Of a stretch of 64,000 bases of DNA, positions 990 to 64,000 are shown piece by piece (the first letter of the stretch is position 1; the number at the start of each line of letters is the position of its first letter). The DNA lies in assembly GCA_008933995.1 (NCBI GenBank), contig WARS01000051.1, forward strand, positions 2,914,001-2,978,000. Direction: 5' to 3'. The notes below the pieces were generated by a model. That model was not told where the DNA came from. It did not search any database and was given only the letters and a program-made list of their open reading frames with translations. This DNA comes from Datnioides undecimradiatus. Its lineage: Eukaryota; Chordata; Actinopteri; Lobotiformes; Datnioididae. Both the position numbers and the translations under genes were made by a program.

Positions 990-25876
<24,887 letters not shown>

Positions 25877-29924: not shown

Positions 29925-31275
29925 GGGTGTTCCACATTATTAAGCAGACCACCATTTTCAAGCAATATGGGAAAGAAAAAGGCTCTCTGGTGCCGAAAAG
30001 TGTGAAATAGCTGAATGCCTTGGACAAGGTATGAAAACCTTAGATATTTCACAAAAACTTAAGCGTGATCGTCATACTGTTAAGAGATTTGTGGCTGATT
30101 CATAGCACACACGGGTTTATGCAGATAAAGACACAATGAGGAAGGTTTCTGCCAGACAAATACATCGGATTAAGAGAGCAGCTGCTAAAATGTCATTACA
30201 AAGCAGCAAACAGGTATTTGAAGCTGCTGGTGCCTCTGGAGTCCCGCGAACATCAAGGTGTAGGATCCACCAGAGGCTTGCAGTTATGCATAAACCTTCT
30301 ATTCGACCACCCCTAACCAATGCTCACAAGCAGAAACGGCTGCAGTGGGCCCAGAAATACATGAAGGCTCATTTTCAAACAGTCTTGGTCACTGATGAGT
30401 ACCGCGCAACCCTGGATGGTCCAGATGGATGGAGTAGTGGATGGTTGGTGGACGGCCACCATGTCCCAACAAGGCTGCGACATCAGCAAGGAGGTGGCGG
30501 AGTCATGTTTTGGGCCAGACTCATGGGGAGAGAGCTGGTCAGCCCCTTCAGGGTCCCTGAAGGTGTGAAAATGACCTCTGAAAAATCTGTGGAGTTTCTG
30601 ACTGACCCCTTTCTTCCATGGTACAAAAAGAAGAACCGTGCTTTCCGTAACAAAATCATCTTCATGCAGGACAATGCACCATCTCATGCTGCAAGGAATA
30701 CCTATGCATCATTGGCTGCTATGGGCATAAAAGGAGAGAAACTCATGGTGTGGCCCCATCCTCCCCTGACCTCAACCCTATTGAGAACCTTTGGAGCATC
30801 CTCAAGCAAAAGATCTGTGAGGGTGGGAGGCAGTTCACATCAGAGCAGCAGCTCTGGGAGGCTGTTCTGACATTCTGCAAAGAAATTCAAGCAGAAACTC
30901 TCCAAAAACTCACAAGTTCAGTGGATGCAAGAATTGTGAAGCTGTTATCAAATAAGGGGTCCTATGTTAAAATGTAACCTGACCTGTTAAGATGTTTTTG
31001 ATTGAAATAGCTTTTGATTTCAGTAAATATGACCTCCTAATGCTGCAAATTCAACAAATGAGCATTTTCAGTTCTTTACAACCTATAAAATGTTTCGAAA
31101 CTCTTATTTTTAACTTATTTTTGAAAAAAATACTGTTATCATTGGGAGGTTTGTTCAATAACATTCGAGTTATAGTGTAACGGTTGATGACTTGAAAATT
31201 ATGCTGACTATCATTCGACTGTTCAGGAAAATCAGAGAAAAATATCATTTGCATAATAATTTGGAACGTGGTGTA
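29925..31275 (+). mobile_element. Tc1/mariner DNA transposon (DD37E type), inactivated
   Basis: Imperfect terminal inverted repeats are visible: gtgttccacattattaagca at about 29928 and, reversed, acgttccaaattattatgca at about 31250-31269 (16 of 20 match). Between them lies a transposase gene with helix-turn-helix-type N-terminus and DDE catalytic domain. Fish genomes carry many such elements. Boundaries are approximate and target-site TA duplications were not firmly placed. Confidence 0.82.
29967..30975 (+). pseudogene. Tc1-like transposase, broken by frameshifts and a stop
   Basis: Starts near the ATG at 29967. A frameshift near 29985-29995 follows at once, an in-frame TAG lies at 30103-30105, and a one-base deletion lies within 30752-30757. 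The long middle part is open (30136-30750). Catalytic acidic residues are still present: Asp at 30394-30396 (VTDEY), Asp at 30670-30672 (MQDNAPSH) and Glu at 30783-30785 (NPIENLW). Allowing for the deletion, 37 residues separate the second Asp and the Glu, a DD37E spacing. The last segment ends near LLSNKGSYVKM. Few lesions suggest a fairly young copy. Confidence 0.85.
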
Positions 31276-33148: not shown

Positions 33149-33401
33149 CTGTGATCTGGGATTTTTGTTTTATTATAATCTTCGAAGCAGTAACACAATA
33201 CAGGAACTCAGCTGGTCCAGGGGAAGGGAGGCGTAGTTTCCAGAGGAGGAAGGCTTGGCTCAGCAGTTTAATTACAAGCATTCCTCTGAGCCAGATCACA
33301 AGTGGATGTAAACACAGTGGCTCTTCATCCCAACACTCTGACGGGCTGACTGACAACTGGCCCACGGTGGATTACAGCCAGACTGCTACCAAACACAAAA
33401 C

Positions 33402-33507
33402 ATGTCTGTGTGTAACACCACACCGTGGTGTGCCTGGCCTACTTTAATCCTATTGTGGATCTGGATGTGGGAAGGTGGCTGTGATGTACAGAATCAAGCA
33501 GAGGAGG
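33402..33507 (+). CDS. Receptor kinase exon 1: start codon and signal peptide
   Basis: ATG at 33402 in the context aacATGt opens [20 protein letters not shown] and continues [15 protein letters not shown] before the gtgag donor. The hydrophobic core [11 protein letters not shown] followed by GGC is a good signal peptide. The exon ends in phase 1, precisely what the next exon (34855, needing one base) requires, which supports this start. It was not part of any long open frame, so it rests on these two arguments. Confidence 0.7.
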
Positions 33508-36500
33508 GTGAGTGCACTGCGATTCCATGCTCACATAGAACTTTGACGTGATTATATGACGGTATATTAAAACTCTCAGACTTATTGCGTCTGACTGTTA
33601 TTCCAGCACATTCCAGGGGACTATGACGAAGTTGTCAGGAAGTGTTTTAGGAAATGATAAGGCCGCTCAGAACATTTATAAACACATAATGTTTTGTTTA
33701 TTGTAGAACTCTTTCTCTGCACGCATTATATAAGATATAAATGATTGTGTCCCTTAGCATTAGTATATAAGAATAAAAATCCCAGCAGTTATTTTGGTAA
33801 AAACTGCTCTGGGAACAGTACACCTGCAGAATTACTTTAATAGCAGTAAGATCGAAAAATTCTGTTTTTTTAAATTCACTATAGTGGTTAAAATATTTAT
33901 TTCAAAAATAAAAGTAAACAGTCTGAGAGCTGGGAAACAATAAAAACAAAGGTTTATAATGTTGCGACAGTGTAGAGTTCCTTAAAGGGACACAGTGGGA
34001 AGCGCTTTGCCTCTTTATGTTCACTCCGAACAGGATGGCGTTCTTAGGTGATGAAGTCCACATCGCTTCAGTTCAGTCCAAATAATGTGACTTTATTTAG
34101 TGCAAAAGGCTGTGTCACATCTGAATAAGAAGAAATAAAACTTTGAAGGTAGTCAGAGTATTCACTGTCGGGTTATTACTATAGATAGATCAGTGTGTGA
34201 TCTATTATTTAATATTAATAAATCTTATTACTATAATATTGCACCTATTAATCCTGCATCATCTATTAACTGATCATGTGTTTTATACGAAGACTTATAA
34301 TCTGTCAAAATTAGTCTTTCTACAGCTGATAACTCTTAGAACAAGAAGAACAATATGTCACTTGACACAAACTCATCATTAGGAAATGAACAAAGGAGGA
34401 GGCAAACGTGTGTTTTAGCACAAACTTTGACCTGCTGGTGAACTGAAGGAAAAGTCAAGTCATCGAGTTTCTGGGAACCATGAATTTCTATATGCTGTCG
34501 GTTGATTCAGAGTTGAGATATTTAAGGTGGTTTAAAGTGGTGACAGACCTTTAATTGAAGTGCTCAGAAGATCTCCAATTCGTGCAAATGTTTAGGGAGC
34601 GATGCCGGACAACATCCTGATAAAGAGACAGAGAAGATAAACACTATGCTGAGGGATTTGCATGCTGCATCAAAAGCAGCGCAGTATGAAATAAAAGCGC
34701 GCGATGCAAAGCTCTGTCAGGTTTCCCCTGATCTGGGATCTGTGTTTCTGACTGCGTATGGTTCGCTGTCCTGTCAGTCAAAGAGGATCATGTCTGTCAC
34801 TGAAAGCATGGGATGATTCGGCAGCGTTGACGTTCTCTTCTCCTCTGTGTTCAGAGATTTTCCATTCTGACAAACAGAGCAAGCTGGGATGGACTTCCAA
34901 CCCACCCACTGAAGTAAGTTGGACTGCGCAGTGCTGGGTCAAAGTTATGAGACCATGCACTGTCAATGCACTGTATAGTAAAACGAGTTTACACTGAATG
35001 TTTGACCTAATACTAACTGCATTAACATACTGGCATGAGGGAAACTGTAACGTTATAATCTGATACATTACCTACATGTGATTAATACAGCACTGTAAAG
35101 ACATTTCACCTCATTTACCACATTTTCATTCACAATATGGATTTTAGAAAGTTGGCATTTTGCATGGAAGCTTCCTGGAAGATTAACTGAACTATATCCG
35201 AGTTAACACTGCATAAACATTCAGTTTAGCCCTGGTGTTGATCCATGAGGTTGTCGGGTCTCATCAGGATTTGTGTGTCTGGAGTTTTCCCCTGCAGCTT
35301 TTCACTGACTGTGTCTTTCCCACTTTCCTGTTGTCCCAGTGGGATGAAGTCCGTCTCAGAGTGGATAGAGAGAGTCCAGTGCCTGTGCTCCAAGCATGTA
35401 AAAGAAGCATGATGAGAAGTATTTTAAGTCAACGGATGGAGCGTAAAGATGCCCGCTATCTACTCATGGACATTGCGTTTGCTCAAGAAATGGAGCCATC
35501 TGGTGTACTCAACCCACTGCAAGTTCACCTTTTTGACTCAGACACACTCACCACAATGTTTGGCAATGCTGTCACAGTCCTGAGCCTGAAGACATCGAAG
35601 CCATTTCCTGACACGGTCCACCCAAACCAGATATCCAGCTACCTGAACCGCAGCCTGGCTCTGAACCTGGGCCCAGTCAGCAGGAGAGGCTTCCAGCTCG
35701 CCTTCTCCTACTCTGGAGAGTGTGTGTTGGTAACGTCCATCAGACTGTACTACAGGAGGTGCCCTGACATTGTGGCTCAGCTGGCCTCCTTTAAGGGGAC
35801 AGCGGCTGGGTCAGGCCCTGTGACAGGTTCCTGTGTGAAAGGAGCTGTGGAGGTCTCTCCACCTGTTACAGAGTGTAATGTGGATGGAGTATGGGGCCCA
35901 CTGCAGGGGGGATGCGCCTGCCAACCTGGGCACCAAATGATGAATGTCACCTGTCAAGGTATGGAGATGATCTGTTTCATATTGTTTATCCGTAACTCAT
36001 TCACTGGCGAGGGGCACACCATTAATGAAGCATATGAAAGATGAGATAAAGAACTTAGGCCAATTCTTCGGGTGTTGCTGAGTTTGGGGAAGGTTCAGAT
36101 GGGAATCAGCCGTAGCCCCCGGGCACGATGGACCCCCATAGGGACCTAGAGTTAGTCAGAAGGAGAGAAAGAAATAACAGGAAGACAATGGTTGGAGGGA
36201 AGGTTGTTGAATGTGATAGAGAAAATAGGGGAAAGAGGGCTGTTAGGGTATTTACAGGGAAGTGACACATTTAGGTGTGGTCCTGCATGTTTCACTGATA
36301 GCTCCAACTAATTTTTAAACAGTTTGTCATCAAACAGTATTTATACTGTGCCTGCTAAAGTAACTTTTACTCACACTCCAGGAAAGTGGGTGAGAGATGC
36401 AGGTGACAGCTTGCACATTTTTCCGATTCATTAAAAGAGAAAGAAAAACTTTCATGTGCGGTTAAAGTCAGAATATAGAATTTAAAGTTGGGATCTGTGA

Positions 36501-39500
36501 ATTTAGAGTTCTGTACTCTATACTCTCTACACACTGTGCTAAAAAGCAGAGAAACCTTTAAGTTACAAGGCAACAGATTTGTAAAATTACATTGAGTTGA
36601 TTTGATTATTATGATTTGTTAAGTTTAAGCTAAGTTGAAGTGTTTAAGCTTTGAGCTTAACTAAAATTGAATGTTTAAGCTTATAAATGAAAATAATATT
36701 CCTCCCTGTGTGTTAACTTATAGTTACTCAAACCTGTATGCCTTGCATTATAGACTGTCTTGTCTTGGTATCTATCTTTTTTTAAATTTTACTTCAATGT
36801 GTCAGGTTTTTAATTGCCATGGCAACTTTTGCTATGTCACAATAAGTCAGGCAACAGTGTTCCGCAGATGGGACAGCTTAACAACCTTACACAATACAGC
36901 CCAGAGTGGACATCACGGGCCTTATGACTAATAATAAGTCAAGAGAAGATCAATAGAATATTTAATCAACTGAACGTGTGCTTATATAAAATTATAGTAG
37001 TTTAACAATTCAAACCTGAAACTATATAAATAAAGAAATAAATAAATACATACATACATAGAAATTCAGGATTTAAATTAATGGTAAAAAACACAAAAGG
37101 GAATAAATTGTCATCAAAATATGATTTATGAAATTTTTTTTACCCTGAATTATAAGCAAATGAAAATGCAAGGAGAAGATGCACAAACGTCCACAAACCT
37201 CAAAGCTACAGAAGTCAACAGAACGTATTAAAACCAGTTAGCTAAAGTCTGCAAAAGGCAGGAGCCAGTTACTTGTGAACCCTGTGCTGTGACCTTGTGA
37301 GAACACAAGGAGAACGCTTGTGTTTCGCTGTGTGTGTTGCACGGCAGATCGCAGGTCAGAGAGACGATAACACGACGCAGTCTCTCTTGCCCGTGGACGA
37401 TGAGGACGACACAGTGATAACATGTCACTTCTGTCCAGTGTGCCAGCAGCAGCAGCAGCTAAAATTAGCAGCCTGTTTTTTTACCAGTTAGTGTGCTGAT
37501 GCAAACATTTCCCAATATATTTAGCTCAATCTTGGGTTCCTAGATCTACAGATTGTGTGTCTTTTCCTTCTTTATGAATCATAGCCATGACTTTCACATC
37601 CTCTTTCCCATCATCATCCTTCCTGTCTGTTTTATCTCACTGGTTATTTATACATTTCCAGCTAATTGCTGAACACACAGTCACAGTTTCATGTCTTCTG
37701 GATTTTAGGATAGTGTTCTCAGAGTTGGTCAGGACAATAATAATAGGAACCAGTCCGTAATGCGAGCAGGGACATGTGGAAGGTCATTTAAAAGGAGTCA
37801 CCATCACACAGTTGGTCAAGGCTTCAGGTTCTGCACTCGTGCTTGAGCTACAGTCACTCGGGCCAATGAGCGTCTCATGATGAATTCACTGGAAGCTACA
37901 GAGGGCGTTTAGATGCAGTGAGAAGAAACTGTTCATTTTGAAACCAATGGCGATGCTATCAGCATCTGCAGGTGTTTCTCAATGCTCCTCTCCTGGACTG
38001 GATTCAGCCGGTTTCTGTCGAGGGAAGATGGCCTGTGAGAGACAGATGATTCAGCCAATCCCATGCCTGCCCTTGTCATGATGGCTATAAAGCAATGACA
38101 CCATCCAGATCGAACTCTTCAGTGAACTCGCTCTTCTTCTTTGTTATTTGCAAACTAGTATTGATTGCTTCTTCACAGAGACACATGCCTTGGGTCCTGT
38201 GCTGATCTATATGTGTTTGTAGCAGGAGCATCAGCAATGATATAACCTGGAAATGCTAGAGGGGCAGGGAAGGTTAAAACGTCGTAACAAAGAACAATAT
38301 TCCTAGAAAATGCCAGATATTACAACCAAAACATTGCACCCTTACCATGTCTTTTTTCACCACCAGTATTAGTGGCGTCAATGAGACACTTGTTTCTCTC
38401 TCACCAGCGTGTGGGATCGGCTTCTACAAACCAGCCAATGACAGCGGAAGATGCCGGCTGTGTCCGCCGAATAGCAAGACGCACAGGGAGGGATCAGAGA
38501 CGTGTGACTGTCTGCAGGGTTTCAGCCGCCTGCCGACCGACCCTGGTGACCTCGGCTGCACCAGTAAGAAACACTGAGTGGGCTACTGAGTTAAACTAAT
38601 GCGTGTGACTGGACCTAGAACCTTAAGGGGAATTGTCAACTCTTTCATGCCCCCCACTGATGGTAACTGTGGCAGAAACAAATGGATGTCACTGTCTCAT
38701 GTCTTGTATTTTTAAATCACCAGGGTAATTCCACCTTCCACCTGTATACCCTAATCATATTTGATCCTATATAGATAATACATATTCATAAATAGCCATA
38801 ATCAAAGAGTTAAGCGTAAGCAGTTTTCTCATTCTCTGTCTTGTCCCCCACAGAGCCACCCTCTGCCCCTGTGAATCTAACAGCCCATTACCACAATGGC
38901 TCCATGCTGGTAATGACATGGGACCCTCCTCACGACCGGGGAGGCAGACCGGAAGTGACGTATCGCACCAAGTGTGAGATGAAGGCAGAGGCTGGGAGTC
39001 AGTGGGAGGCATGTGGTGATGATGTGGTTTTCCTGCCGGGCTCAGTAAGACTGACCCACACATCAGTCAGCATCACAGGACTGAGCCCGGAGCACGACTA
39101 CAGACTGTCAGTGCAAGCCTGGAATGATATATCCACCCAGCAGGGAGCGCCGCCTTCATCCACCGCTGCCGTTACTATTCATAGATGTATGTAAAGTCAA
39201 CGAGATGATGTCACCGTATTAGACAGTCAACCAGTCTTAGATAGCAGACACGAAAGCTGCACATCCTCAATAGGAGGAAGACAGCTGAGGGACCGAGGGT
39301 TCAGTTCTGGTTTCAAACGTTCTGCGTGTAACTTCCAGAAAACTTCCTCTGTCATCAGTGACTGGCTGTTCATTGAGCTGCAGTCAGCGTCCTGTTGCAT
39401 GCACTCGCACTCTGTGGGCACAGGCAAGCATCATTCCAGGCACCGGCCAGCAGTGTTGCCACATACACAAGACTGAACATGAAATGATTCAGTTTGATTT

Positions 39501-42500
39501 GATTTGATTTGATTTGGCTTCGTGTCACTAACTGGCTTGATGTTTGCAGCCGATGCCACAAAACGACCAGCGTCAGATCTATGCCATGCACCGAAGCCTC
39601 AGCCAGCCCAGCAGTAATGTTAGCAAACAACAGTTAGCAGGGGCTTTTCTACACTGCACTCATCTTGCATTTGTTCCATTATAATTGTAGCTGAAAAAGT
39701 AATTTTGCAAAAGGCAATTTAGTCAGTTTACCAGTTACACCGCAGCCCCGGGAGTCTGGATGAATTAGCTGAAATTACTCATTCAAGACAGTATTTACTC
39801 CAGTGTCTGGCTAGCAATTTGACAACGGTTACAAACATGTAAGCTGACATTAGCCAGATAAAACTACAATATCAATCAATCAAAGAGTTAATTGAGTTTA
39901 TTTGTCATATGTAATCATGCAAGATACAAGCACGGTTAAATGTAACTGAGCAAGTTCTTTCAATCCATTATCAGGAAAAATGAATTAATAAAAATGTTGA
40001 ATAGGCTAAAGTGGTGTTTTATTTCTGAGCCCCGTCAAACTCTTCTGCTTCCCTTACAGGGAAAGTTCCTCCCGCGGCCTATACAATTCCCCAGCCTCCA
40101 ATGACACCTGCCCCTCAGCATCAGAGTCGCTATTTCTCGTGGGTGACACTGTGTCTTTTGTTTGGCGCCCTGCTGCTCATGGCTGTTGTCCCACTGGCTG
40201 TCTGCGCCCTGCGGCGCAACTACTCCAAGCTCAGGTATATCCCACTTCCGTTTCTGTGCCCTACTGCTTTCAATTCACTGTCAGGGAAATCCCGAGTTCT
40301 CATATGAATCACAAAAGATGCAAATGACAAACATCGCCATGTATTTTCCTTTTTGATCATGACAATACACCACCACTTTTAGACAGTTATCAAGGTGAAA
40401 CATGGGACATGTGTAGATTTGTAATAATAATAATTATTGGAATTTCTATTCTTATTTAAAGTTGCATAAAACGACTAAAGGCCAAAGACAAAAAAGAATG
40501 GACGATCGTTTTATATATTTCAAAATGTCAATATAGGTCATTTAAAAAAAATGATCAGAGGCGTTATCAACATTATCAGTATTAACTGGAGGTGCAATTG
40601 ATATCTGAGTGGTGACTAAACTGAAGACTAATTACTGATACTGTGTGAAAATGATCATTTCTCTACAGGTCTGACCAGGAAGTGGGGCTTTTGCCACTGA
40701 ACGCAGAAATTTCCTACCGACGTCCACTGGAAGTGGAGGCTGCACCTCAGCAGGCCAACAGTCAGTCTCACGTTATTATTTTATTCCATCATCTCTATCC
40801 CATATTCAGTAATACTGCATGTACACATTATTTTAACACAAACAAGAAGCTGATTTTAACACAACAAGACTTTGTGTTTTTTCAGCGGTGGAAGGTGTGG
40901 CCCAGCTGTTGGAAGGGATCAGCAGCAGGCTGCTTGCCAGTCTTAAGGAGGTCCTGGTAGAGAGAGACATGCTCACCTTAGGCAAGGAACTTGGCAAAGG
41001 TCAGTTCATGATTACTTACCAGCGACAATCTTTTTCTCAGTGTCATAATGGACCAAGGGTTTGCAAACTCTCAGTAAAGTGGATAATGTTGTTGTCTTCT
41101 GCTAAAACCTATGAGTCACTTGGTAACATTCAGTGCCTATGCAAAAACTAGAAAAGGAAAACAGAAGTAAGAGTGTGGAGATTGGCATTGTGGAAGGGCA
41201 CGTGGGGCATTTGACTTCTACTATGACTTTTTATTATGTTCTCTGACTTTTTATTATGTTCTCTAATGACAACTAGAACACTCCAGGTAGTGGAAACAAG
41301 GGACTTTGTTAACCAATTGCAAAAGCTCAGTCAGCAGCCAGGACCAAGGAACAACAAGCAAGAGGATGTTAAGTTAGGATACGAAAGAATCTCTTCAATG
41401 TAACATTCGGGCCAGACCATGTTGGACCTCAAAAGTTAAAGAACATTAAAATCAATCCTGAATTCTTGGTCAAATAGTTTCAGACATCAACATCAAACAT
41501 CATAACTAAAGTGCCTGGGTGTTAAAGTGATTGATGACAGTCAGCCGTGTTTTTGTTCTGCAGGGGAGTTTGGCTCAGTCTATGAAGGGATCTTTACCCC
41601 ACAAGAAGGTGTGGACATTAAGGTGGCCGTGAAGACCATGAGAGGTGAGTGCTGACACTCATGCCCTTTATCAGAGCTCAACTCTGCTGCTTCCTAATTA
41701 TTTCTTTTTCTCTGTCCCAAACATTTAGTTGGAATCCACAGCCACGAAGACCTGCATGAGTTTCTACGAGAGGCGGAGACCATGAAGAACTTCCATCATG
41801 AAAATGTGGTCAGGCTGCTCGGTAAGATATCCCTCCTGATTCACTAGAAAATAGATCAAAGGAAACTGAGACTGCCCAAGAATGACAGAAACAGCTTACT
41901 CAGCAAGTGCCCTGAAATGACACGTTACTTTCATACGATGTCACGACATAATGTGGATTTTCACACGAGACGCTGCCATTCCTTTCTAGCTGCAAACACT
42001 ATTTTCAAAAGTATGACTGTAATTATTCCATAACCTTACAGCTTCAGTGTGGAACCTTAAAAATGACATTTGTTCCATTCCAGCCAAAGAGTTCACACGA
42101 TGCTGATTCAGCCTATCCACATAAATCTCTCTGTGCTTTAAATAGTTTTAAATCTGGTGTGACATTCCCACTTTGGAGCACTTCAGTTAGGACTGGTTCC
42201 CCATAGCTGATGGGGAGGGCAACTGTTGGCTACAGCATCCAGTAGAGCGTTAATGTAATTACTCTTACTTGCCAGAAGGGGGAGACAAAAGTCCTGCACG
42301 ATAGCTTTAATCTCTCATTCTTGTACCTGTGATGGTGAAGATCACTTGACCTTGTCTGTCCCCAGACTTAGTAATCTTGTAAAGATGTGTATGTGTTTCT
42401 ATGCAGGGGTCACTTTACAGAGAGAGCAGGACTCTTCTCTGCCGGTTCCTCTGGTCATCCTGCCCTATATGAAACATGGAGACCTGCGCCGCTTCCTCAT

Positions 42501-44497
42501 TGGTACGCGCTATGGTGACATTCCCATGGTAAGACACAGTCAGCACATGCATGTACAAAAATGGGGCTTATTATATGCTGTTCCTCTCCCGGGCTCATTT
42601 CATTCTTTGCTGTCCACCCTGATGCCGACGTATATAAAGTATAAAATAGAATAAACAGAGAAATGCAATCAATAAAAAAAACACAATAGTAAAAATACAA
42701 TAGAAAACTATGATATTTACAAAAGTGTCTGATGTGCAGTGTGCAATGAATGGATGGAATGCAGCACAGTAATGTATGTAATGTAATGTACAGCACAGAA
42801 TACACCAATTTCTCCTCTCTTCCAGTTTGTGCCCCATCAGAGTCTCCTGCGCTTCATGATCGACATTGCTGCAGGGATGGACTATCTGAGCTCACGAGGG
42901 TTCCTGCATAGAGACCTCGCTGCCCGCAACTGCATGTGAGTCCATCAGAGGGAGACAGTGAGAGGAGGGAGTTTGAAATCAAGGACTCCTTGTTCATATA
43001 AGACTGTGTCTCTGTCCTCAGCTATTGGTATTCTACCATGGTATGTATCTGGGAAGGAAGCTGCTTAAAATTTCAATAAAGCAGACAGAGAGACTCAGAG
43101 GAGACGACGTGTGTGTTGGCAGGAAATTCAAAAAAACAGTGTGTCAGAACTTCCATTTTGTTATTTGATCTGACTCCAGAGCTTGGTGCCTTGCCTGTGA
43201 TGATTACGCAAACGCACTTTTAATTTTTTTCTCTTTGTCCACAGGCTAGGTGATGACTTCAGCGTGTGCGTGGCTGACTTCGGCCTGTCCAAGAACATCT
43301 ACAGCAGCAGTTATTATCGTCAGAAAGTAGCTATCCGTTTGCCAATCAAGTGGATGGCCATTGAGAGCCTGTCTGAGTCTGTCTACACCACAAAAAGTGA
43401 TGTGGTAAGTTCAGTTTTCTGTGGAACATCACTTTACAGTGGGGAGGAAGTACAGTTCTATGAGAACTCTTACATCTGATACAGCTTTAAAATACAGGTT
43501 AGATTCTGATTTACATTCAGTGAATGTCTGAATTTGTACATTGTATACGCTATAAGGCTATGATCTCTTGTCTCTGTCCTCTCAGTGGTCATTCGGGATA
43601 ACCATGTGGGAGATTGTGTCCCGGGGAAGGACTCCTTATCCTGGAGTTCACAACCACGAGCTGCTTGACCTGCTGATGCTTGGACATAGGCTCAAACCAC
43701 CTGAGGACTGTGACCCCAAACTGTAAGTTCCTGTGCTTATTCTGGGACATTTGCCATATTATATATTTGATGAAATTAGGTATTTATTGATTTGACTGAC
43801 CATTGTCATCATCTAATTATAATTATTTCACGTACACAACTGAGGGTGGCTGTGGCCCGGGTGTAGAGTGGGTCGTCCACCCATCAAATTATCCTCTCAG
43901 CTGCATGTCAAAGTGTCCTTGGGCAAGACACTGAGCCCTAAATTGCTCCAGATGGCTGTTCTATCAGTGTGAATAAGTCTATGAATGTTAGTTACTACTA
44001 CATACCACTGATTGATCTGTACCCGTACTGTATGAATGGGTAAACAATAACCTGTAGTGTAAAGAGCTTTGATAGATCCAAAGACAAGAAAGGCCCTCCA
44101 TGCTCCTCACACTTAACTCTCAGATTTTCATATCTTCAGTATGTGGACTTGCACAGACCTCATACCTCCTCCATCTCCCACCAAACACAGTTATGAAGTC
44201 ATGCAGAGCTGCTGGGATAAGGACCCGACCTGCAGGCCTGGCTTCAGGGACTTGGGCGAGATGCTGAAAGGTCTTCTGTCGGAGCATCCAGAGCTGGAAG
44301 CCAGCTATGAGGCCAACTACATGAACCAGGTCCTTCAGGTCGCTGCTGAGGCTGCCTCTCAGGATCTGCAAACAGACTCTGGGAAAAGATTGGAAAATGA
44401 TTACCTGCCTGCTCCTGTTGGTGCTGCTGCAGTCAGAGATGACGATAAGGAATTAGAGAATGGATACCTTAAATGTATTACTGGCTTTAGCAGTTAA
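33402..44497 (+). CDS. Receptor tyrosine kinase with Eph-type ectodomain and TAM-type kinase, 887 aa
   Basis: Fifteen exons: 33402-33507, 34855-34913, 35340-35958, 38408-38563, 38854-39186, 40060-40234, 40669-40760, 40886-40999, 41564-41644, 41729-41821, 42407-42528, 42826-42935, 43245-43404, 43586-43722, 44191-44497; total 2,664 nt, exactly 888 codons. Domain order: signal peptide (1-~28), Eph ligand-binding-like domain (~36-230), Cys-rich module (~250-315), one FN3 (~315-425), transmembrane helix (~452-474), kinase (~550-820), short tail with two ENxYL motifs. The kinase has all catalytic signatures ([25 protein letters not shown]-equivalent) and TAM hallmarks ([12 protein letters not shown]). 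Eph proteins normally have two FN3, an Eph kinase and a SAM domain; TAM proteins have Ig and FN3 domains. The combination is seen directly; ligand and role are unknown. No stop, frameshift or missing catalytic residue was found, so it looks functional. Confidence 0.87.
34855..35958 (+). CDS. Receptor kinase exons 2-3: Eph ligand-binding-like domain
   Basis: Exon 34855-34913 gives [18 protein letters not shown], the first strand of an Eph ligand-binding domain, joined to [13 protein letters not shown] in exon 35340-35958. The C-terminal half is clearly Eph-like: [29 protein letters not shown], then the beginning of the Cys-rich part (GCACQPGHQ). The middle (about 35400-35560) is poorly conserved: the Cys-containing RDC...CKETFNLYY-type segment used by Eph proteins to hold ephrin is not recognisable, so ephrin binding should not be assumed. 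The two-exon layout of small then large exon resembles Eph genes. Confidence 0.82.
35959..38407 (+). other. Receptor kinase intron 3, 2.4 kb
   Basis: No exon or element recognised. AT-rich with a short TAAA/TACA run near 37023-37063. Open frames here are short and overlap on both strands. Confidence 0.6.
38408..39186 (+). CDS. Receptor kinase exons 4-5: Cys-rich module and single FN3 domain
   Basis: Exon 38408-38563 (156 nt) encodes [20 protein letters not shown] and [14 protein letters not shown], the Eph/TNFR-type Cys-rich repeat. Exon 38854-39186 (333 nt, phase 1-1) encodes one fibronectin type III domain: [55 protein letters not shown]-glycosylation sequons NLT and NGS are present. Exon sizes and phase-1 borders match my recollection of Eph genes. 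Directly after it the sequence goes to the juxtamembrane segment, so the second Eph FN3 is absent. Confidence 0.88.
39187..40059 (+). other. Receptor kinase intron 5
   Basis: No exon recognised; the sequence that would encode a second FN3 was looked for and not found. Contains a (GATTT)5-like run at 39493-39517. Confidence 0.6.
39493..39517. repeat. (GATTT)5 pentanucleotide repeat
   Basis: Consecutive tttgatttgatttgattt units in a receptor-kinase intron. Confidence 0.85.
40060..40760 (+). CDS. Receptor kinase exons 6-7: transmembrane and juxtamembrane
   Basis: Exon 40060-40234 has a Pro-rich stalk ([17 protein letters not shown]) and a hydrophobic helix [20 protein letters not shown] followed by basic RRNYSKLR, giving type I topology. 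Exon 40669-40760 encodes the juxtamembrane segment [20 protein letters not shown]. The twin-tyrosine juxtamembrane motif of Eph receptors (YxDPxTYEDP) is absent. Confidence 0.85.
40886..44497 (+). CDS. Receptor kinase exons 8-15: TAM-type tyrosine kinase domain and tail
   Basis: ATP loop [12 protein letters not shown] spans the junction 40999/41564; catalytic Lys in IKVAVKTMR (41630s); alpha-C Glu in [10 protein letters not shown]; catalytic loop [13 protein letters not shown] (42900-42935); [18 protein letters not shown] with the activation-loop tyrosine pair (about 43270-43320); substrate lobe [42 protein letters not shown](I/L/M)A(I/L)ESL is the accepted hallmark of TAM kinases. The tail (44350-44494) contains [10 protein letters not shown] and ELENGYLKC, two similar candidate SH2-docking sites, and no SAM domain. 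The stop TAA is at 44495-44497. Confidence 0.9.
43844..44100 (+). mobile_element. SINE-like fish repeat in the last receptor-kinase intron
   Basis: Starts ggtggctgtggcccgggtgtagagtgg, a decayed tRNA-like head (A-box-like part; B-box eroded), continues through gtccttgggcaagacactga and aattgctccagatggctgt, and ends tgtaaagagctttgatagatc. The same ordered words occur in reverse at 56138-56376. It ends about 35 nt before the pyrimidine-rich stretch that leads to the last exon, without disrupting the splice site. Confidence 0.7.
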
Positions 44498-44924
44498 GGA
44501 GGGTTGTAACTACTGAAAAGGGGTATTATGGCAGGTTACAAAATGTAAATATGTGTTTAAGTGTCGCTTTTACGAGCTATACCCCTCTATGTATATATAC
44601 AGGTGGTTGTATGGTAAGAGTTGTGCATCTGTCTGAAAACTGAAAATGTCTGTTACTGGTTGAGGTACTTAGGTGTATTGAAGTCCATTTCTGTTGGCAA
44701 TAGGGAAAACTACCCTGCTAACATTGAATATTACCATAAAAAGAAAAAGAAAAAAATACTAATGTAAAATAAGATTTTTGGTACTTTGCAACCTGGACCC
44801 AATTTTACCACTTTAATGTGTGAATTACTGATGGATATCTTAGCTTACTGATATTGAGCTGACTGTTGACAGGTATGTATATAGTATTGTTTCCACATCA
44901 TACAGCCATACGCGCTTGAATAAA
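44498..44924 (+). other. Receptor kinase 3' untranslated region
   Basis: About 430 nt of AT-rich sequence from the stop codon to the poly(A) signal. No other feature. Confidence 0.65.
44919..44924 (+). terminator. Polyadenylation signal AATAAA of the receptor kinase
   Basis: Canonical AATAAA in cttgaataaaagac, followed by T/GT-rich sequence (ttttttgtaaaatgttgt). It is only about 100 bp before the first promoter motif of rab1b. Confidence 0.75.
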
Positions 44925-45392: not shown

Positions 45393-51284
<5,892 letters not shown>

Positions 51285-58188: not shown

Positions 58189-58788
58189 TCAGTCGACGGG
58201 GCCCTGGAAGATGAGTTTGATGTGGCCCTGCTCCCCTGTCAACCAAGTACCACAGAAGGGGCAGGCAGCGTGGAAGGCGTGGGTGCCGTGGGGTAGCGGG
58301 ATCTGGCTCCACCCCACCACTGTCTTTTCTGAGCATACGTGGCCGCAGGGGCAGAAAGCGTGAGTGGGCGGCCCGGCATCCAGGTACAATCCTCCCTCAC
58401 AGCCCAGCCACAGCGGCACGTACGGGCCGACTCGCCGGCACATGGGGCACTCCCTCTCCCCAGTGCTGGCTGGTGCTGTCCCCCCGGGGCCGGCCGGACC
58501 CTTGTCCTTACGGTAGCCCCAGTTGTGGTAGCCATGTACATGGCCGCAATTGACATAGACCCAGGGTTGCTTCTTGTCAACAATCTCGCGCTGGGCCAAA
58601 CTGGGGAAGGCCAGGGTGTTGAATCCAACGGGACACTGAGGCCGCGCAGCATTCAGCTCCTGGCGAAGGGACTCTAGTTGTTTGAGGGTTGGGGTGTGGC
58701 GCAGTCCGGCAGGGGTCCTCCACAGCAGGGTGGCCCCGCACAGATCGATCAAAGATCCGTCCTGGAGGGTGTTTGACTCATTTTCAAC
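58189..58788 (-). CDS. peli3: peli3 last exon: RING-like domain
   Basis: 200 codons starting VENESNTLQDGSLIDLCGAT after a pyrimidine-rich acceptor (ttctgtgttctctgaag) and ending TGA at 58191-58189. Pellino Cys/His pattern is visible: NCGHVHGYH, CPMC, CPCGHVC and HAACPFC. A Gly/Pro/Ala insertion (KDKGPAGPGGTAPASTG) lies just before the RECPMC step. Confidence 0.92.
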   Translation of the reverse strand, partial: VENESNTLQDGSLIDLCGATLLWRTPAGLRHTPTLKQLESLRQELNAARPQCPVGFNTLAFPSLAQREIVDKKQPWVYVNCGHVHGYHNWGYRKDKGPAGPGGTAPASTGERECPMCRRVGPYVPLWLGCEGGLYLDAGPPTHAFCPCGHVCSEKTVVGWSQIPLPHGTHAFHAACPFCGTWLTGEQGHIKLIFQGPVD

Positions 58789-61002
58789 CTTCAGAGAACA
58801 CAGAAAGATGGAAATGCAGCGGGGGGAAACAGGAGAAGAGAGGGTTCATCATTTTTCATCACTGCGCTGTCAGGACAGGTGACTGATTCAGAGAAATACA
58901 AGTCAAACTGGAACTGTGCACTGAGCTGTACACTCTGTACAAAGGAATCTTCTAGCATTGTCCTTCCCTACCACCACATGAGGGCACTGTGCTCAACTAA
59001 TTACAGTTCAGTTGACACCCATCAGTTGAGAGCAGCATGTCTGAAAAAGTATTTTTTGAAATGTGCAACAGGCTGTACTCCTGAAAGACACAGGAGTTCC
59101 TGTTTCCAGCAAACTGATGTTTGAAATGTCTGGAGAGATCAAATGTCTCAGTTTGTGACGTATGATGAGCTGCCTTTACATGATTATACTCGAGGGGACA
59201 TAACGACATAATGAATCAAGCAGCAGTTGTTCTGATACATACTGTCATTTCAGGATGGAACCTAAAGGAGGCGCAAGGGATGGGGGAAGGGTTTCAATTT
59301 GTGTGTAATATTAAAAAGAAAAAAAATTGGACAGATTTAAAACTGAAATTACAATTCTGTTAGTTCCTGCTGGATACTGGATGGTACTAAATTCCGGAAA
59401 CTGGGAAGAGTCACAGGGGCCATTGGTTCCTAGTCGTGGATTGATATTCAGCAAGGTTCTACACATGCTTGGCTGAAACTAACTCCTGTAATGGTCATGA
59501 AAGTCACAACAGTCCAGTGGACTTTCATTGAAGATGGTTAAAGAAGAAGGTTGACACATCACAGAAAGGTATTTTGAAATGTCATGCTAGTATCGTGGAA
59601 CTGTGTGGGAGCCAACAGCTCAGGTCAAGAAAGAAGTGTCCGGACACAGCGGAGTGAACTGAGTTACACCAACAGGGCACGGAGACCAGATTCTACACTG
59701 TCTCTGTCATCACCTCGGACCTCAAAGGAAACACTGGACTCATTTTCCCATAAACCCCGACATCTTACCAGTTTTCCCCTCTGCTGGGCCGAGCGAGTCT
59801 CCCTCAGGGCAAAGACATTTCCACACACTGAAATTTCCCGCCAGACGCCCGGAGCTGGCTCAGACACAAATTCCCCTGCCGGGTGCATCACCAGCACGCC
59901 GTTGGTGGTCAGGCCGTCCATCAAGCCATCCGACGTCCTCCATTTGGCAGCCCGCTCCTGTGGACCCCACACACACACACGCGCGCGTGCAAACACACAA
60001 AGAGCAGGCAGACGTAAAGGTTAGGGATGGGGAGGCACAGAGGCATGCTAGTGGAGGTGGATGTCAGAGGTGGTTGGCTAGAAAAACAGCCAACGTTGCT
60101 TTTCTCTGCTATATTTAGCTCAGTACAGAGTGACTACTGTACTGACTAATGCACAGAGGTGCACCCACGCCTAAGAATAAACCCGTCCCTCAGAGGGAAA
60201 AAGGATGTATTACGAACACAAATGAGCTCTCATGAAATGAAGCAGCAGATTTCTGGCATGTGTAGCTTCAGTTTGAAAAAAAAAAAAAAAGCTTTGGCAG
60301 TTAAAAAAAGCAGCCTGCAAACTGAGACTGAGTCCTGCAAACACTTCTCTGAGGCTGCTGCAGAGAACACAGGCTGGCAAACTGGCAAGTTAAAGTCAAA
60401 GCTGCACTTCAACAGCACTGTATATACGGCAAACGTGCAACCACGTAGTGACAGCTACGCACTGTTTCGGTTTTACAGTCGCTTCCTGTTTTGGTTCAGT
60501 CTCACGATTACCAGCTTGGTTTCCTGCAGCAGCTGCTTCTCCAACCTTTGCCTCATGTCAACTGCGATGTCTAAACAGATGATAGTGTGCTGAAATGTTA
60601 GCCATATTAAACTGAATGCAATATGAAAATCAATAATGACGGGCTAACCGAATACAGCTAAGAATAGTGGAATACACATATTTTTCAAGTTTTAACATGA
60701 CCTTGCAGCAGTCTTTTTGGTTTCTCTGGATAAGTGTGTTTGGTTTAACATTTCCCAATGTATGAAATATGTCTGGTTAAAATATTAAATAATTCAATGC
60801 AGAGGTATCTACTACGTTACTAAGTTGTTTGCTCAACCTTGCCCATCTTACAAAACCATATTCAAACCAAACTTGACATCCGTTTGTTGACATGATCGGG
60901 CAGAAATGCATATAGTGAGTGCTGGAGTGTAAATATACTGTATAATGTCCATTTCTGCAAACATGCTGACCATATACACTATAAAAATAGGAATATATAT
61001 AT

Positions 61003-61034
<32 letters not shown>

Positions 61035-61261
61035 ACACACACACACACACACACACACAATGAAAACCTTAAGGTCTTCCTATACCTAATGATGTATTAT
61101 TTATCAATGAGACAATAACAGTGTCATCTGCAGCATAGCCAGCATACAGATCAGGGGTGAACCACAGAACCTGTTTCCTCATAAAAGGGCAATATTTGTT
61201 CCATATATCACTGTAAATGTAGTCCTGATGCTTAGGGGAGTTATACAAGCCTCAGTCGTGA

Positions 61262-61299
<38 letters not shown>

Positions 61300-62730
61300 T
61301 GTGTGTGTGTATGTGCGCGCGAGCATGTGTTAAGAACTGCTTGCTGACGTTATCTCTCTGACTGCTGGCCTAGTTGTCGGGGGTCCTGATGAATCTTGCA
61401 TGGGATGAAGTCATGCTGTCATGAGAAAGGGCTATTATTGGTTTGCGTGGCTTTGCGTACCTAGATGTCACGTTTCAGACCGCCCCAGCCCGGCAGCATC
61501 TGATGCCACTTGGAAGCTTTCGCCTCTTGAAGTGTATTAACAAAGACGGAAAAGTAAATGTTTCTGGCGACACGCTTCACATGTCAGTGGAGTACTGCAG
61601 CAGTTAGGTTGGAGGTGATCTCTCATAATTAGCCTGTAACTGTCATTAGTAGCTGCGTAAGGCTCCAGACAGCTCTACTCACTGAGCTGCAGATACAGTA
61701 AGACAGAGTGCAGGGGAGGGCTGCTGAGTCGGCCTGATGGTGCATGACTGCTGCGTTCATGAACGTGCCCTGTTGGTTTTTCCTGTTTACGGCAACTCGG
61801 GTGCTCCATTACCATCCGTTCCTGCCAGTTATTATAAAAATGTAATTTCCAAGTTAAAGGACGACTCTGGTTCATAATTGCTTGGTTTCATTCGCATATC
61901 TTCGACCACTGGTTATGATGATAATGTGCTCATCAAAGACCTGGGAGCGCTGCTAGGTCGCTGAAAAGACCGGGGTGAGAAAAGAGTGAGCAGTCAACAA
62001 GAGAAGAGTTTAGATATTAAATGAATTAGTGATATGAATAAACATATGCTTTATTTGCTTGAGTATCAATGGGTGCTTCAGTGTGGCTTGTAGAAGTGGG
62101 AATGTGAGTTAAAGCAGCATAATCCTGAACCATTAGGTCCGTCACCTATTCCAGAAGCATACGCAACATGTGTGAGGACATACTGATATTCTGAATATTA
62201 TGGTATGTTGTATGTTCACTGCTTATGTAACCAGACGCACATCTCTCCAAGCCAAAGCCCTTTCATAACACACATGACTAACACTACCAGCAAGTCCTAC
62301 CACACACACACACACAGAAACTCCTTCCTCTCCTATTCTTCCTCAGGCCAGGTCACATGCACTGACACTCATCCTCACAGCTATGATGTCACCCGTGGGT
62401 GGCACAGCTCTGTCCCTGCTGTTGCTCTCGCCATGGTTACCACAGTTACCAAGCCCTGTGTAGTTCACCAGTGGAAGCCTGGCACCCATGAAGAAGAGCA
62501 CTCACCCCTAGGAAGATGTTCTTGGAGGAGTCGAAGCCGGCGGCATAGATGCGGGCCGTGTAGGGAGCGCTGCGTTCACACATGATGCGGCACGCGTAGC
62601 GAGAGATGGTGCTCTGAGCCGACTGGCCACCACCACCACCCTCCCCTGCCGCGCCGCCACCCTGACCGCTGCTGCTGCCCGCCGTGTCTGTCACCACGAA
62701 GTCGATCATGCTCTCTGTGGACCTGCCAAT
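58189..62730 (-). CDS. peli3: Pellino E3 ubiquitin ligase (probably peli3), C-terminal 337 aa, 5' end beyond window
   Basis: Three minus-strand exons, all phase 0: 62506-62730, 59769-59957, 58189-58788 (1,014 nt with stop). They read IGRSTESMIDFVVTDT, RIYAAGFDSSKNIFLG, then ERAAKWRTSDGLMDGLTTNG and WREISVCGNVFALRETRSAQ, then IDLCGATLLWRTP and the zinc-binding RING-like region (PWVYVNCGHVHGYHNW, RECPMCRRVGPYVPLWLGCE, AFCPCGHVCSEKT, HAACPFCGTWL), ending IFQGPVD. Pellino proteins bind phosphorylated IRAKs through an FHA-like core and ubiquitinate them in Toll/IL-1 receptor signalling. The first part of the FHA-like core (roughly 110-130 residues by comparison with about 420-470-aa family members) lies right of 64000. 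Gly-rich and GPAGPGG insertions plus the ehbp1l1-rab1b neighbourhood point to peli3 rather than peli1 or peli2. Confidence 0.88.
58789..59768 (-). other. peli3: peli3 intron
   Basis: 980-nt intron with gtaagatg donor; no repeat or exon recognised. Confidence 0.6.
59769..59957 (-). CDS. peli3: peli3 middle exon (63 codons)
   Basis: Begins ERAAKWRTSDGL after ggtccacag and ends SAQQRGKL, joined in phase 0 to VENES of the next exon, as in other Pellinos. Part of the FHA-like core wing region. Confidence 0.92.
60992..61059. repeat. (TA)n-(CA)n compound microsatellite
   Basis: About 44 nt of TA with one break, followed directly by CA repeats. Confidence 0.95.
61264..61321. repeat. (GT)n microsatellite ending in GC steps
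   Basis: GT run with single TT and AT interruptions, ending atgtgcgcgcg. Confidence 0.93.
62506..62730 (-). CDS. peli3: peli3 exon in FHA-like core with Gly-rich insertion (75 codons)
   Basis: Starts IGRSTESMIDFV after ggtttaatcag and ends KNIFLG before gtgag. Between TDT and QSAQSTISRYACRI lies GSSSGQGGGAAGEGGGGG, longer than the loop I recall for PELI1/2. The rest is highly conserved. Confidence 0.9.
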
Positions 62731-64000
62731 CTGATTAAACCAGGAGACAGGGGTCAATATTCAAAATGAATCATGCTGGTACTAAAGGGTTGGTTCACCC
62801 ACACTACAGAAATGTATTCCTTCATTGTCCCTTTTAGGATACTCTCAAGGGCTGGGTGCTGCTCCTGCCTCCACTGTTTTTAATGTATTATGCATTATAT
62901 TATTATTGCTATTGCCTATTGCTGACCATTTCCCCTCTGTATGGGTGTGACCTACCGCTGGGTGTGTAACTGCAGCCTGTGGTGGAGCAGGCTGGTAGGA
63001 TTGCAGGTAGCTGGAGCCACGGCAGCTTCAAACACAGGCCACAGTTGGCTGCAGTCAAGGCAGCACTTACTCACGATCACGAAGCACCTTTGGAAATGTT
63101 TGTACCTTCTGAGGTCTCATTATTTGCATTGTATTAGGACTGTCTGAACCAATAGCCCTGCACACAGTTGTAAAACCATTGAGGAGAATGAGGAAAGAGG
63201 TGGAGGCAGACGTCTGAATTACAGTAAATCAGTCTTCGATATACCTGAACGTGGACAGTGTACATCAAAACTACCTGCATGATTAGATGCCACCAGAGAT
63301 AAGTGTTCTTCTATTGTGGGTGAACTAACCCTTTAACGCAGCAGACAGAGGGAGGGAGGGAGACAGACACGTGGATGATTGGAGTGGAGCCCTGTTGATT
63401 CTGTCTGCCGGAGTCACGGCTTTTCATGGATCTCCTTGATGATGAGAGAAGGTGGTTGGGAGAAGACTGCGAGCCGCTGAGAGCAGACAGCTCTGAGTCA
63501 TCTTTCTCTTGTATATTTTATCTCTCCAGTCTTTTGTCTTCCCTCCTTCTGGCTGTCTCTCCTGTGCTACCTCTTCATTCCCTCCCCCTGCTTCTCTCTG
63601 ATGCCCTCGCTTTGCTGCTCCCTCGTGATGCTGCATTCTCGAGAAGATCACCTGTGCACTCGCTGAGACATTTACTGTGTCTAGTTGTTTGCCTCTATGG
63701 GGACAAAAGGTTTATTCACTGTTTGACAACATATTCAAATCTGAGAGGCGTCTGAAATGAATTGTTCACTGTTTGGGGGGGATTAGCTTTCTTTCTGTAA
63801 GTGACATGAAGAGATGGATATGAATCTCATGCCAGTGTGTCCTGAACATAGTCAGGATGTGGTTGGTAATGTCTCTGAACACTTATTGGATATTCAGCAG
63901 CTTTATTAAAACCAACTGGGCACCTCTACCTCTGCCTATGACCACCAAAGACTTGAGTGAGCTGTAGCTTTTCAAAGCAAGCAGAATATAAGTTGTGTAT
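62731..64000 (-). other. peli3: peli3 intron running off the right edge
   Basis: No further Pellino exon was found to the right edge. A pyrimidine-rich run (CT-rich on the plus strand) lies near 63495-63600. The open frames at 63424-63755 overlap on both strands and are low-complexity. Confidence 0.55.

Follow-up and report, generated by a model that had tools for sequence, protein, structure and literature searches.

Receptor tyrosine kinases (RTKs) are listed in subfamilies by fixed pairings of an ectodomain with a kinase, and the table of 58 human RTKs in PMC9953206 confines the ephrin-binding domain to the EPH subfamily and gives the TAM receptors (TYRO3, AXL and MER) an ectodomain of two immunoglobulin (Ig) and two fibronectin type III (FN3) domains. 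A passage of PMC6993872 likewise describes Ephrin_lbd, the Eph ligand-binding domain (LBD), as apparently specific to Eph receptors in vertebrates. Here we describe a receptor gene at positions 33402-44497 (+ strand) of a 64,000-nt stretch of Datnioides undecimradiatus contig WARS01000051.1 (the window), the predicted product of which combines the two architectures: an Eph LBD, Eph Cys-rich modules, a single FN3, a transmembrane helix, a TAM-type kinase and a tail, in that order. We consider it likely that this is one gene, in which Eph-type exons 1-5 became fused, at a phase-1 intron, to the exons that encode the transmembrane helix and kinase of a TAM gene.

Rebuilt independently from its splice sites, the gene consists of 15 exons with a coding sequence of 2664 nt, specifying 887 amino acids and a stop codon. 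All 14 introns have GT-AG boundaries, with phase agreement at every junction. The spliced sequence contains no stop codon in its own frame, as compared with 40 and 49 in the two alternative frames, and none of 2000 base shuffles of it was free of stops. An in-frame stop at 33351 lies 5' of the ATG, and an AATAAA occurs at 44919, 422 nt 3' of the stop codon. A first-pass annotation of the same DNA had described 888 codons in 15 exons running in phase from signal peptide to stop; the exons and phases are reproduced here and the 888 counts the stop codon, but the signal peptide is putative and was judged by eye, with none of the 19-residue windows that start before residue 40 reaching the hydropathy threshold of 1.2. 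The window as a whole has a GC content of 42.7%, a CpG observed/expected ratio of 0.36, and no N.

The Eph-type part of the protein is encoded by the first five exons (all exons listed here and below are on the + strand). Exon 1 (33402-33507) holds the start codon and putative signal sequence in frame and is followed by a GTGAGT donor, and the LBD begins in exon 2 (34855-34913; SKLGW...), as placed by the splice model and Pfam. Exon 3 (35340-35958), which is supported by the splice model, Pfam and Protein Data Bank (PDB) matches alike, carries the remainder of Ephrin_lbd and the Ephrin_CRD domain. Exon 4 (38408-38563; 156 nt, phase 1-1) encodes the Cys-rich Ephrin_rec_like module, and exon 5 (38854-39186; 333 nt, phase 1-1) encodes the sole FN3, colinear with the first FN3 of Eph receptors. 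Each domain named in the first-pass annotation (Eph ligand-binding, Cys-rich, one FN3 and kinase) was recovered when the receptor protein was searched against Pfam: Ephrin_lbd (PF01404) at aa 41-196 (E = 8e-10), Ephrin_CRD (PF25599) at aa 197-249 (E = 6.5e-10), Ephrin_rec_like (PF07699) at aa 258-292 (E = 9e-6), one fn3 at aa 317-415 (E = 1e-8) and a tyrosine kinase domain at aa 543-810 (E = 5e-87). The order of the LBD, CRD, rec-like module and first FN3 is thus the one found in Eph receptors. Yet Eph receptors have two FN3 domains, a transmembrane segment of the Eph family and a SAM domain, whereas the seven Pfam families matched by the receptor protein at E <= 0.001 include no second fn3, Ig, SAM or EphA2_TM, and no SAM was found in six open reading frames (ORFs) just downstream of the stop codon.

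The ectodomain matches 41 distinct PDB sequences at E <= 0.001: Eph receptors account for 35 of them, and titin or myomesin, which match through FN3, for the remaining six; TAM chains are absent from this set. The top match is EPHA4 (E = 2.6e-56), colinear across aa 42-422, with a score of 189.8 bits, followed by EPHA2 (179.8 bits), EPHB2 (163.6 bits) and EPHB6 (135.8 bits), the EPHA2 and EPHB6 matches spanning the last two thirds only. On these scores, the ectodomain did not arise by recent copying of one of the four. Identity to EPHA4 amounts to 31.8% overall; it is highest in the Cys-rich module (41.1%), followed by the CRD (37.7%), the FN3 (30.8%) and the LBD (26.8%). All 16 cysteines of the receptor ectodomain (aa 41-424) align on cysteines of EPHA4, which has four more without a counterpart in the receptor, one pair each in the LBD and the FN3; the Cys-rich modules have kept all of theirs. 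An AlphaFold model of exon 3 alone reached a pLDDT of 36 and was not used.

The LBD differs from that of EPHA4 in two stretches that are shorter by 3 and 6 residues. These stretches presumably correspond to the ephrin-gripping D-E and G-H loops, and the missing pair of LBD cysteines to the loop disulfide. This combination of a retained fold core with rebuilt loops suggests that the ligand has changed; with the gripping loops shortened and their disulfide lost, the receptor probably does not bind a classical ephrin in the usual way. The Ig domains, which form the Gas6-binding part of TAM receptors, are likewise missing from the protein by Pfam.

The remaining exons encode the membrane-spanning and intracellular parts. 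Exon 6 (40060-40234; phase 1-2) contains a stalk and the transmembrane helix (approximately aa 453-475), the single one in the protein, with a hydropathy peak of 2.75 at residue 455. It is followed by a juxtamembrane segment in exon 7 (40669-40760) and by exon 8 (40886-40999), in which the juxtamembrane region, which phmmer aligned to MER, passes into the start of the kinase. The glycine loop and the VAVK lysine lie in exon 9 (41564-41644), the helix C region in exon 10 (41729-41821), and the beta4-beta5 stretch, the hinge and a D-E segment of TAM length in exon 11 (42407-42528). The catalytic loop, HRDLAARN, is in exon 12 (42826-42935), the DFG motif and activation loop in exon 13 (43245-43404), the kinase C-lobe in exon 14 (43586-43722), and the end of the kinase, the tail and the stop codon in exon 15 (44191-44497). 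The catalytic motifs are intact (GKGEFG at 550, VAVK at 572, HRDLAARN at 678 and DFG at 698), as is the activation loop YSSSYYRQ, and the tail contains YMNQ at residue 829 (44318-44329), ENDYLP and ENGYLK. Judged from these features, the predicted protein is a complete single-pass receptor.

Several lines of comparison place the kinase with the TAM family. In PDB sequences, the best 14 of 825 matches at E <= 1e-30, of which the best 60 were compared, are all MER, AXL or TYRO3, with scores of 379, 368 and 363 bits, respectively (E = 2e-112 to 2e-107). MET, which with RON forms the next nearest kinase family, comes after the TAM chains and the chain 9p9u among the matches listed (245 bits, E = 1e-71). 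The receptor kinase is 59% identical to MER, 56% to AXL and 54% to TYRO3, as against 46% for MET and 38% for EPHA2, and this is lower than the 64-71% that the three TAM kinases share among themselves. Two insertions follow the same division: the beta4-beta5 stretch is longer in the receptor, as it is in TAMs, with the insertion absent from MET, and the D-E segment of the receptor and the TAMs is five residues longer than that of MET and EPHA2. A section of PMC8662651 notes that Eph and EGFR kinases are without the D-E insert that nearly all other RTKs possess. The receptor also shares with the TAMs the Y-x3-YY-R-Q activation loop and the absence of a SAM domain. A further feature, which we take to be present in TAMs as well, is the YxN site that directly follows the kinase domain.

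One other resemblance was discarded. The first-pass annotation had regarded KWMAIESL, along with the YYRQ loop, as a TAM hallmark; the TAM-type kinase and the loop stand, but MET carries KWMALESL, such that KWMA[LI]ESL is common to MET and the receptor. The TAM assignment rests instead on whole-domain scores, common indels and the tree, and we consider it well supported by the first two and moderately by the third. Separately, PDB chain 9p9u_A, which ranks between TAM and MET at 315 bits, is 678 residues long and labelled EGFR. Two stretches of it are matched; it also matches an Eph kinase query and looks like a multi-kinase construct.

The main kinase tree comprised nine rows and was inferred under a mixture model, outgroup rows having been added after a six-row tree. 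It places the receptor kinase as sister to MER, AXL and TYRO3 (support 87/91), with these three forming a group of their own that does not include it (92/91), and gives it a branch length of 0.69, compared with 0.23-0.47 in the TAMs. Forcing the receptor kinase together with Eph was rejected (approximately unbiased (AU) test, p = 0.014), so that the kinase does not fall inside Eph, the outcome that the first-pass annotation had named as fatal to its proposal. The free six-row tree likewise joined the receptor kinase to TAM against MET and EPHA2 (SH-aLRT 95, bootstrap 90). Pfam, the PDB scores, the identities and the rejected Eph grouping thereby all agree with the proposal, made at first pass, that a single gene unites an Eph-type ectodomain with a TAM-type kinase.

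A number of points weigh against this placement and against the functional reading built upon it. A grouping of the receptor kinase with MET/RON was not rejected in the nine-row set (AU p = 0.068). The support of 87/91 for the TAM clade is unstarred, and falls to 74/69 once the Eph rows are removed. Of the earlier six-row analyses, the one under the mixture model left every branch unstarred, and in the one under LG+G4 an AU threshold of 0.05 rejected none of six placements of the receptor kinase (EPHA2, p = 0.14; MET, p = 0.139). Three of the nine rows are unverified sequences, and the reference rows are mammalian. Both the assignment of the shortened LBD stretches to the ephrin loops and the Grb2 reading of YMNQ are tentative and draw on a single alignment, and the rebuilt loops themselves speak against a simple model of "ephrin in, TAM out".

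How such a gene could have been made is suggested by its exon phases. The proposed fusion interval is intron 5 (39187-40059, + strand), where a break would bring the exon for the first Eph FN3 into frame with a TAM transmembrane exon: exon 6 begins in phase 1, matching the phase 1-1 border of exon 5. In-frame joining of exons in phase 1 is the classical setting of exon shuffling. Exons 4 and 5 are, in length and phase, presumably close to exons 4 and 5 of Eph genes. At the protein level, a cell-surface ligand together with Eph-like side-to-side clustering would bring the kinases together, the YSSSYY loop would be phosphorylated in trans, and Y829-MNQ, which we assume to sit in place of the Grb2-binding YVNx site of TAMs, could recruit Grb2-type adaptors. 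The net effect would be an Eph-style input wired to a TAM-style output.

The neighbouring genes bear on the origin of the kinase. Upstream of the receptor gene lies an EHBP1L1-like gene (6757-25873, +; exons traced in part) with giant exons and CH and bMERB domains, and downstream lie a RAB1 gene (47314-51284, +; first codons untraced) and a Pellino gene with FHA and RING exons (58189-62754, -; traced in part). Human EHBP1L1, RAB1B and PELI3 are located on 11q13, and the set of EHBP1, RAB1A and PELI1 on 2p. AXL is on 19q13 near TGFB1, TYRO3 on 15q15 near EHD4 and SPTBN5, and MERTK on 2q13; we know of no TAM gene in the chromosome 11 member of the human paralogon. This paralogon, which dates to the two early vertebrate genome duplications (1R/2R), comprises 15 families including EHD, LTBP, MERTK, SPTB and TGFB, with human chromosome 11 (gar LG28) carrying its first member and human chromosome 19 its fourth, according to the main text of PMC6298421. 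The neighbours suggest that the receptor gene occupies the human-11q13-type arm of the duplicated region to which the TAM family belongs. The relevant part of a chicken genome-wide association study (PMC10666442) puts EHD4 and SPTBN5 on chromosome 5 and gives no position for TYRO3, and so does not confirm the linkage of TYRO3 to these two genes.

Taken with the TAM-bearing paralogon, these neighbours raise the possibility that the receptor is the missing fourth TAM duplicate of 1R/2R, kept in fish and lost in mammals, with its Ig/FN3 ectodomain replaced by an Eph one. As a refinement of the single-gene chimera we give this somewhat less than an even chance. The membership of the MERTK family in a paralogon with a chromosome 11 member (PMC6298421) and the position of the gene between the EHBP1L1-like, RAB1 and Pellino genes fit it well. 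On the other hand, the receptor kinase falls outside the trio of AXL, MER and TYRO3, a position that an older split would explain as well as a fast-evolving duplicate would; and assigning the RAB1 gene by score failed (411 bits for RAB1A, 407 for RAB1B), which, with the human 2p set, leaves an alternative arm. A word search of the main text of PMC6298421 returned no fourth TAM gene. The full combination, in which a fourth TAM duplicate on the 11q13-type arm acquired an Eph ectodomain with rebuilt loops and now feeds TAM signalling with input of the contact type, probably from a ligand other than an ephrin, is put forward a shade more tentatively still.

An older origin, in which the chimera arose before the vertebrates, is sister to all vertebrate TAM genes and was kept in some fish, seems to us unlikely, though by no means negligible. 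It would account for the position of the kinase outside the TAM trio and for the roughly equal distance of the ectodomain from EPHA4, EPHA2 (a partial match) and EPHB2. A fast rate alone would produce the same picture in a tree without invertebrate rows, and the site within a TAM-bearing paralogon fits a duplicate better. Relatives of exon 3 were not found in viral contigs or plasmids, nor relatives of exon 13 in prokaryote genome contigs; as these collections are prokaryotic or viral, the lack of orthologues in them means little.

That the locus instead holds two neighbouring genes, or sequences wrongly joined in the assembly, with exons 1-5 belonging to a truncated Eph gene and exons 6-15 to a truncated TAM gene, is very improbable. 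Introns 3 and 5, of 2449 and 873 nt, leave some room for it, but every junction is in frame, and the parts that such genes should have are not to be found: apart from the SAM domain sought above, no Pfam domain, FN3 and Ig included, was detected at E <= 0.01 in any of the seven non-exonic plus-strand ORFs of at least 40 aa in intron 5, or in six of the ORFs of intron 3. Two truncated genes would be required, each lacking exactly what the other supplies, with exon 6 providing the transmembrane helix needed by both halves; and for an assembly join, the window is free of N. Least probable of all is a decaying or untranscribed gene, for although the kinase branch is long and the ectodomain only 32% identical to EPHA4, the 15 exons are open, their splice sites canonical, and the catalytic motifs and all 16 ectodomain cysteines retained.

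The single chimeric gene thus remains the reading that we favor, and its pairing of an Eph ectodomain with a TAM kinase is apparently undescribed so far. The first-pass annotation's view that this receptor class is absent from the human kinome agrees with the table of 58 RTKs, in which the ephrin-binding domain occurs in EPH only (PMC9953206), and if the window is vertebrate, the gene contradicts the description of Ephrin_lbd as Eph-specific in vertebrates found in PMC6993872. With the few terms tried, no description of an Eph-TAM chimera was found in the open-licence literature. A census of RTKs in jawed vertebrates by Brunet in 2016, to which both PMC6993872 and PMC5940169 refer, reportedly added five further RTKs, and may already list this gene. 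A classification by ectodomain would file the receptor as Eph and one by kinase as TAM, and if the reading is true, the class may have escaped notice because one or the other decides the name that an RTK is given (Eph, or TYRO3/MER-like). A natural transfer of Eph sensing onto TAM signaling would offer a ready-made test of how modular both halves are, and would bear on the ligand of the remodelled Eph domain and on the fate of the expected fourth TAM duplicate.

Further observations concern the neighbours. For the EHBP1L1-like gene, Pfam detected CH in one of two pieces and bMERB in both, in one of them under the Pfam cut-off; once spliced, the domains gave matches to EHBP1 at 2e-50 and 4e-49. 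No chain named EHBP1L1 occurs among its matches; in sequence, the bMERB domain seems nearer to EHBP1L1 than to EHBP1. Its giant open exons span 6757-10698 (1314 aa) and 12314-15589 (1092 aa), both on the + strand, and contain many recurrences, noted by eye, of the unit LLPSCPK-x-S-x-IPGFPS; the first of them has no Pfam match. Between this gene and the receptor gene, at 30337-30672 (+), lies what by eye appears to be a fragment of a Tc1/mariner transposase, with no Pfam match in that frame. The RAB1 protein encoded at 47314-51284 is a mixture of RAB1A-like and RAB1B-like residues, and the RING part of the Pellino gene (58189-62754, -) bears an apparent Gly/Pro-rich insert, again noted by eye (YRKDKGPAGPGGTAPASTGERECPMC).

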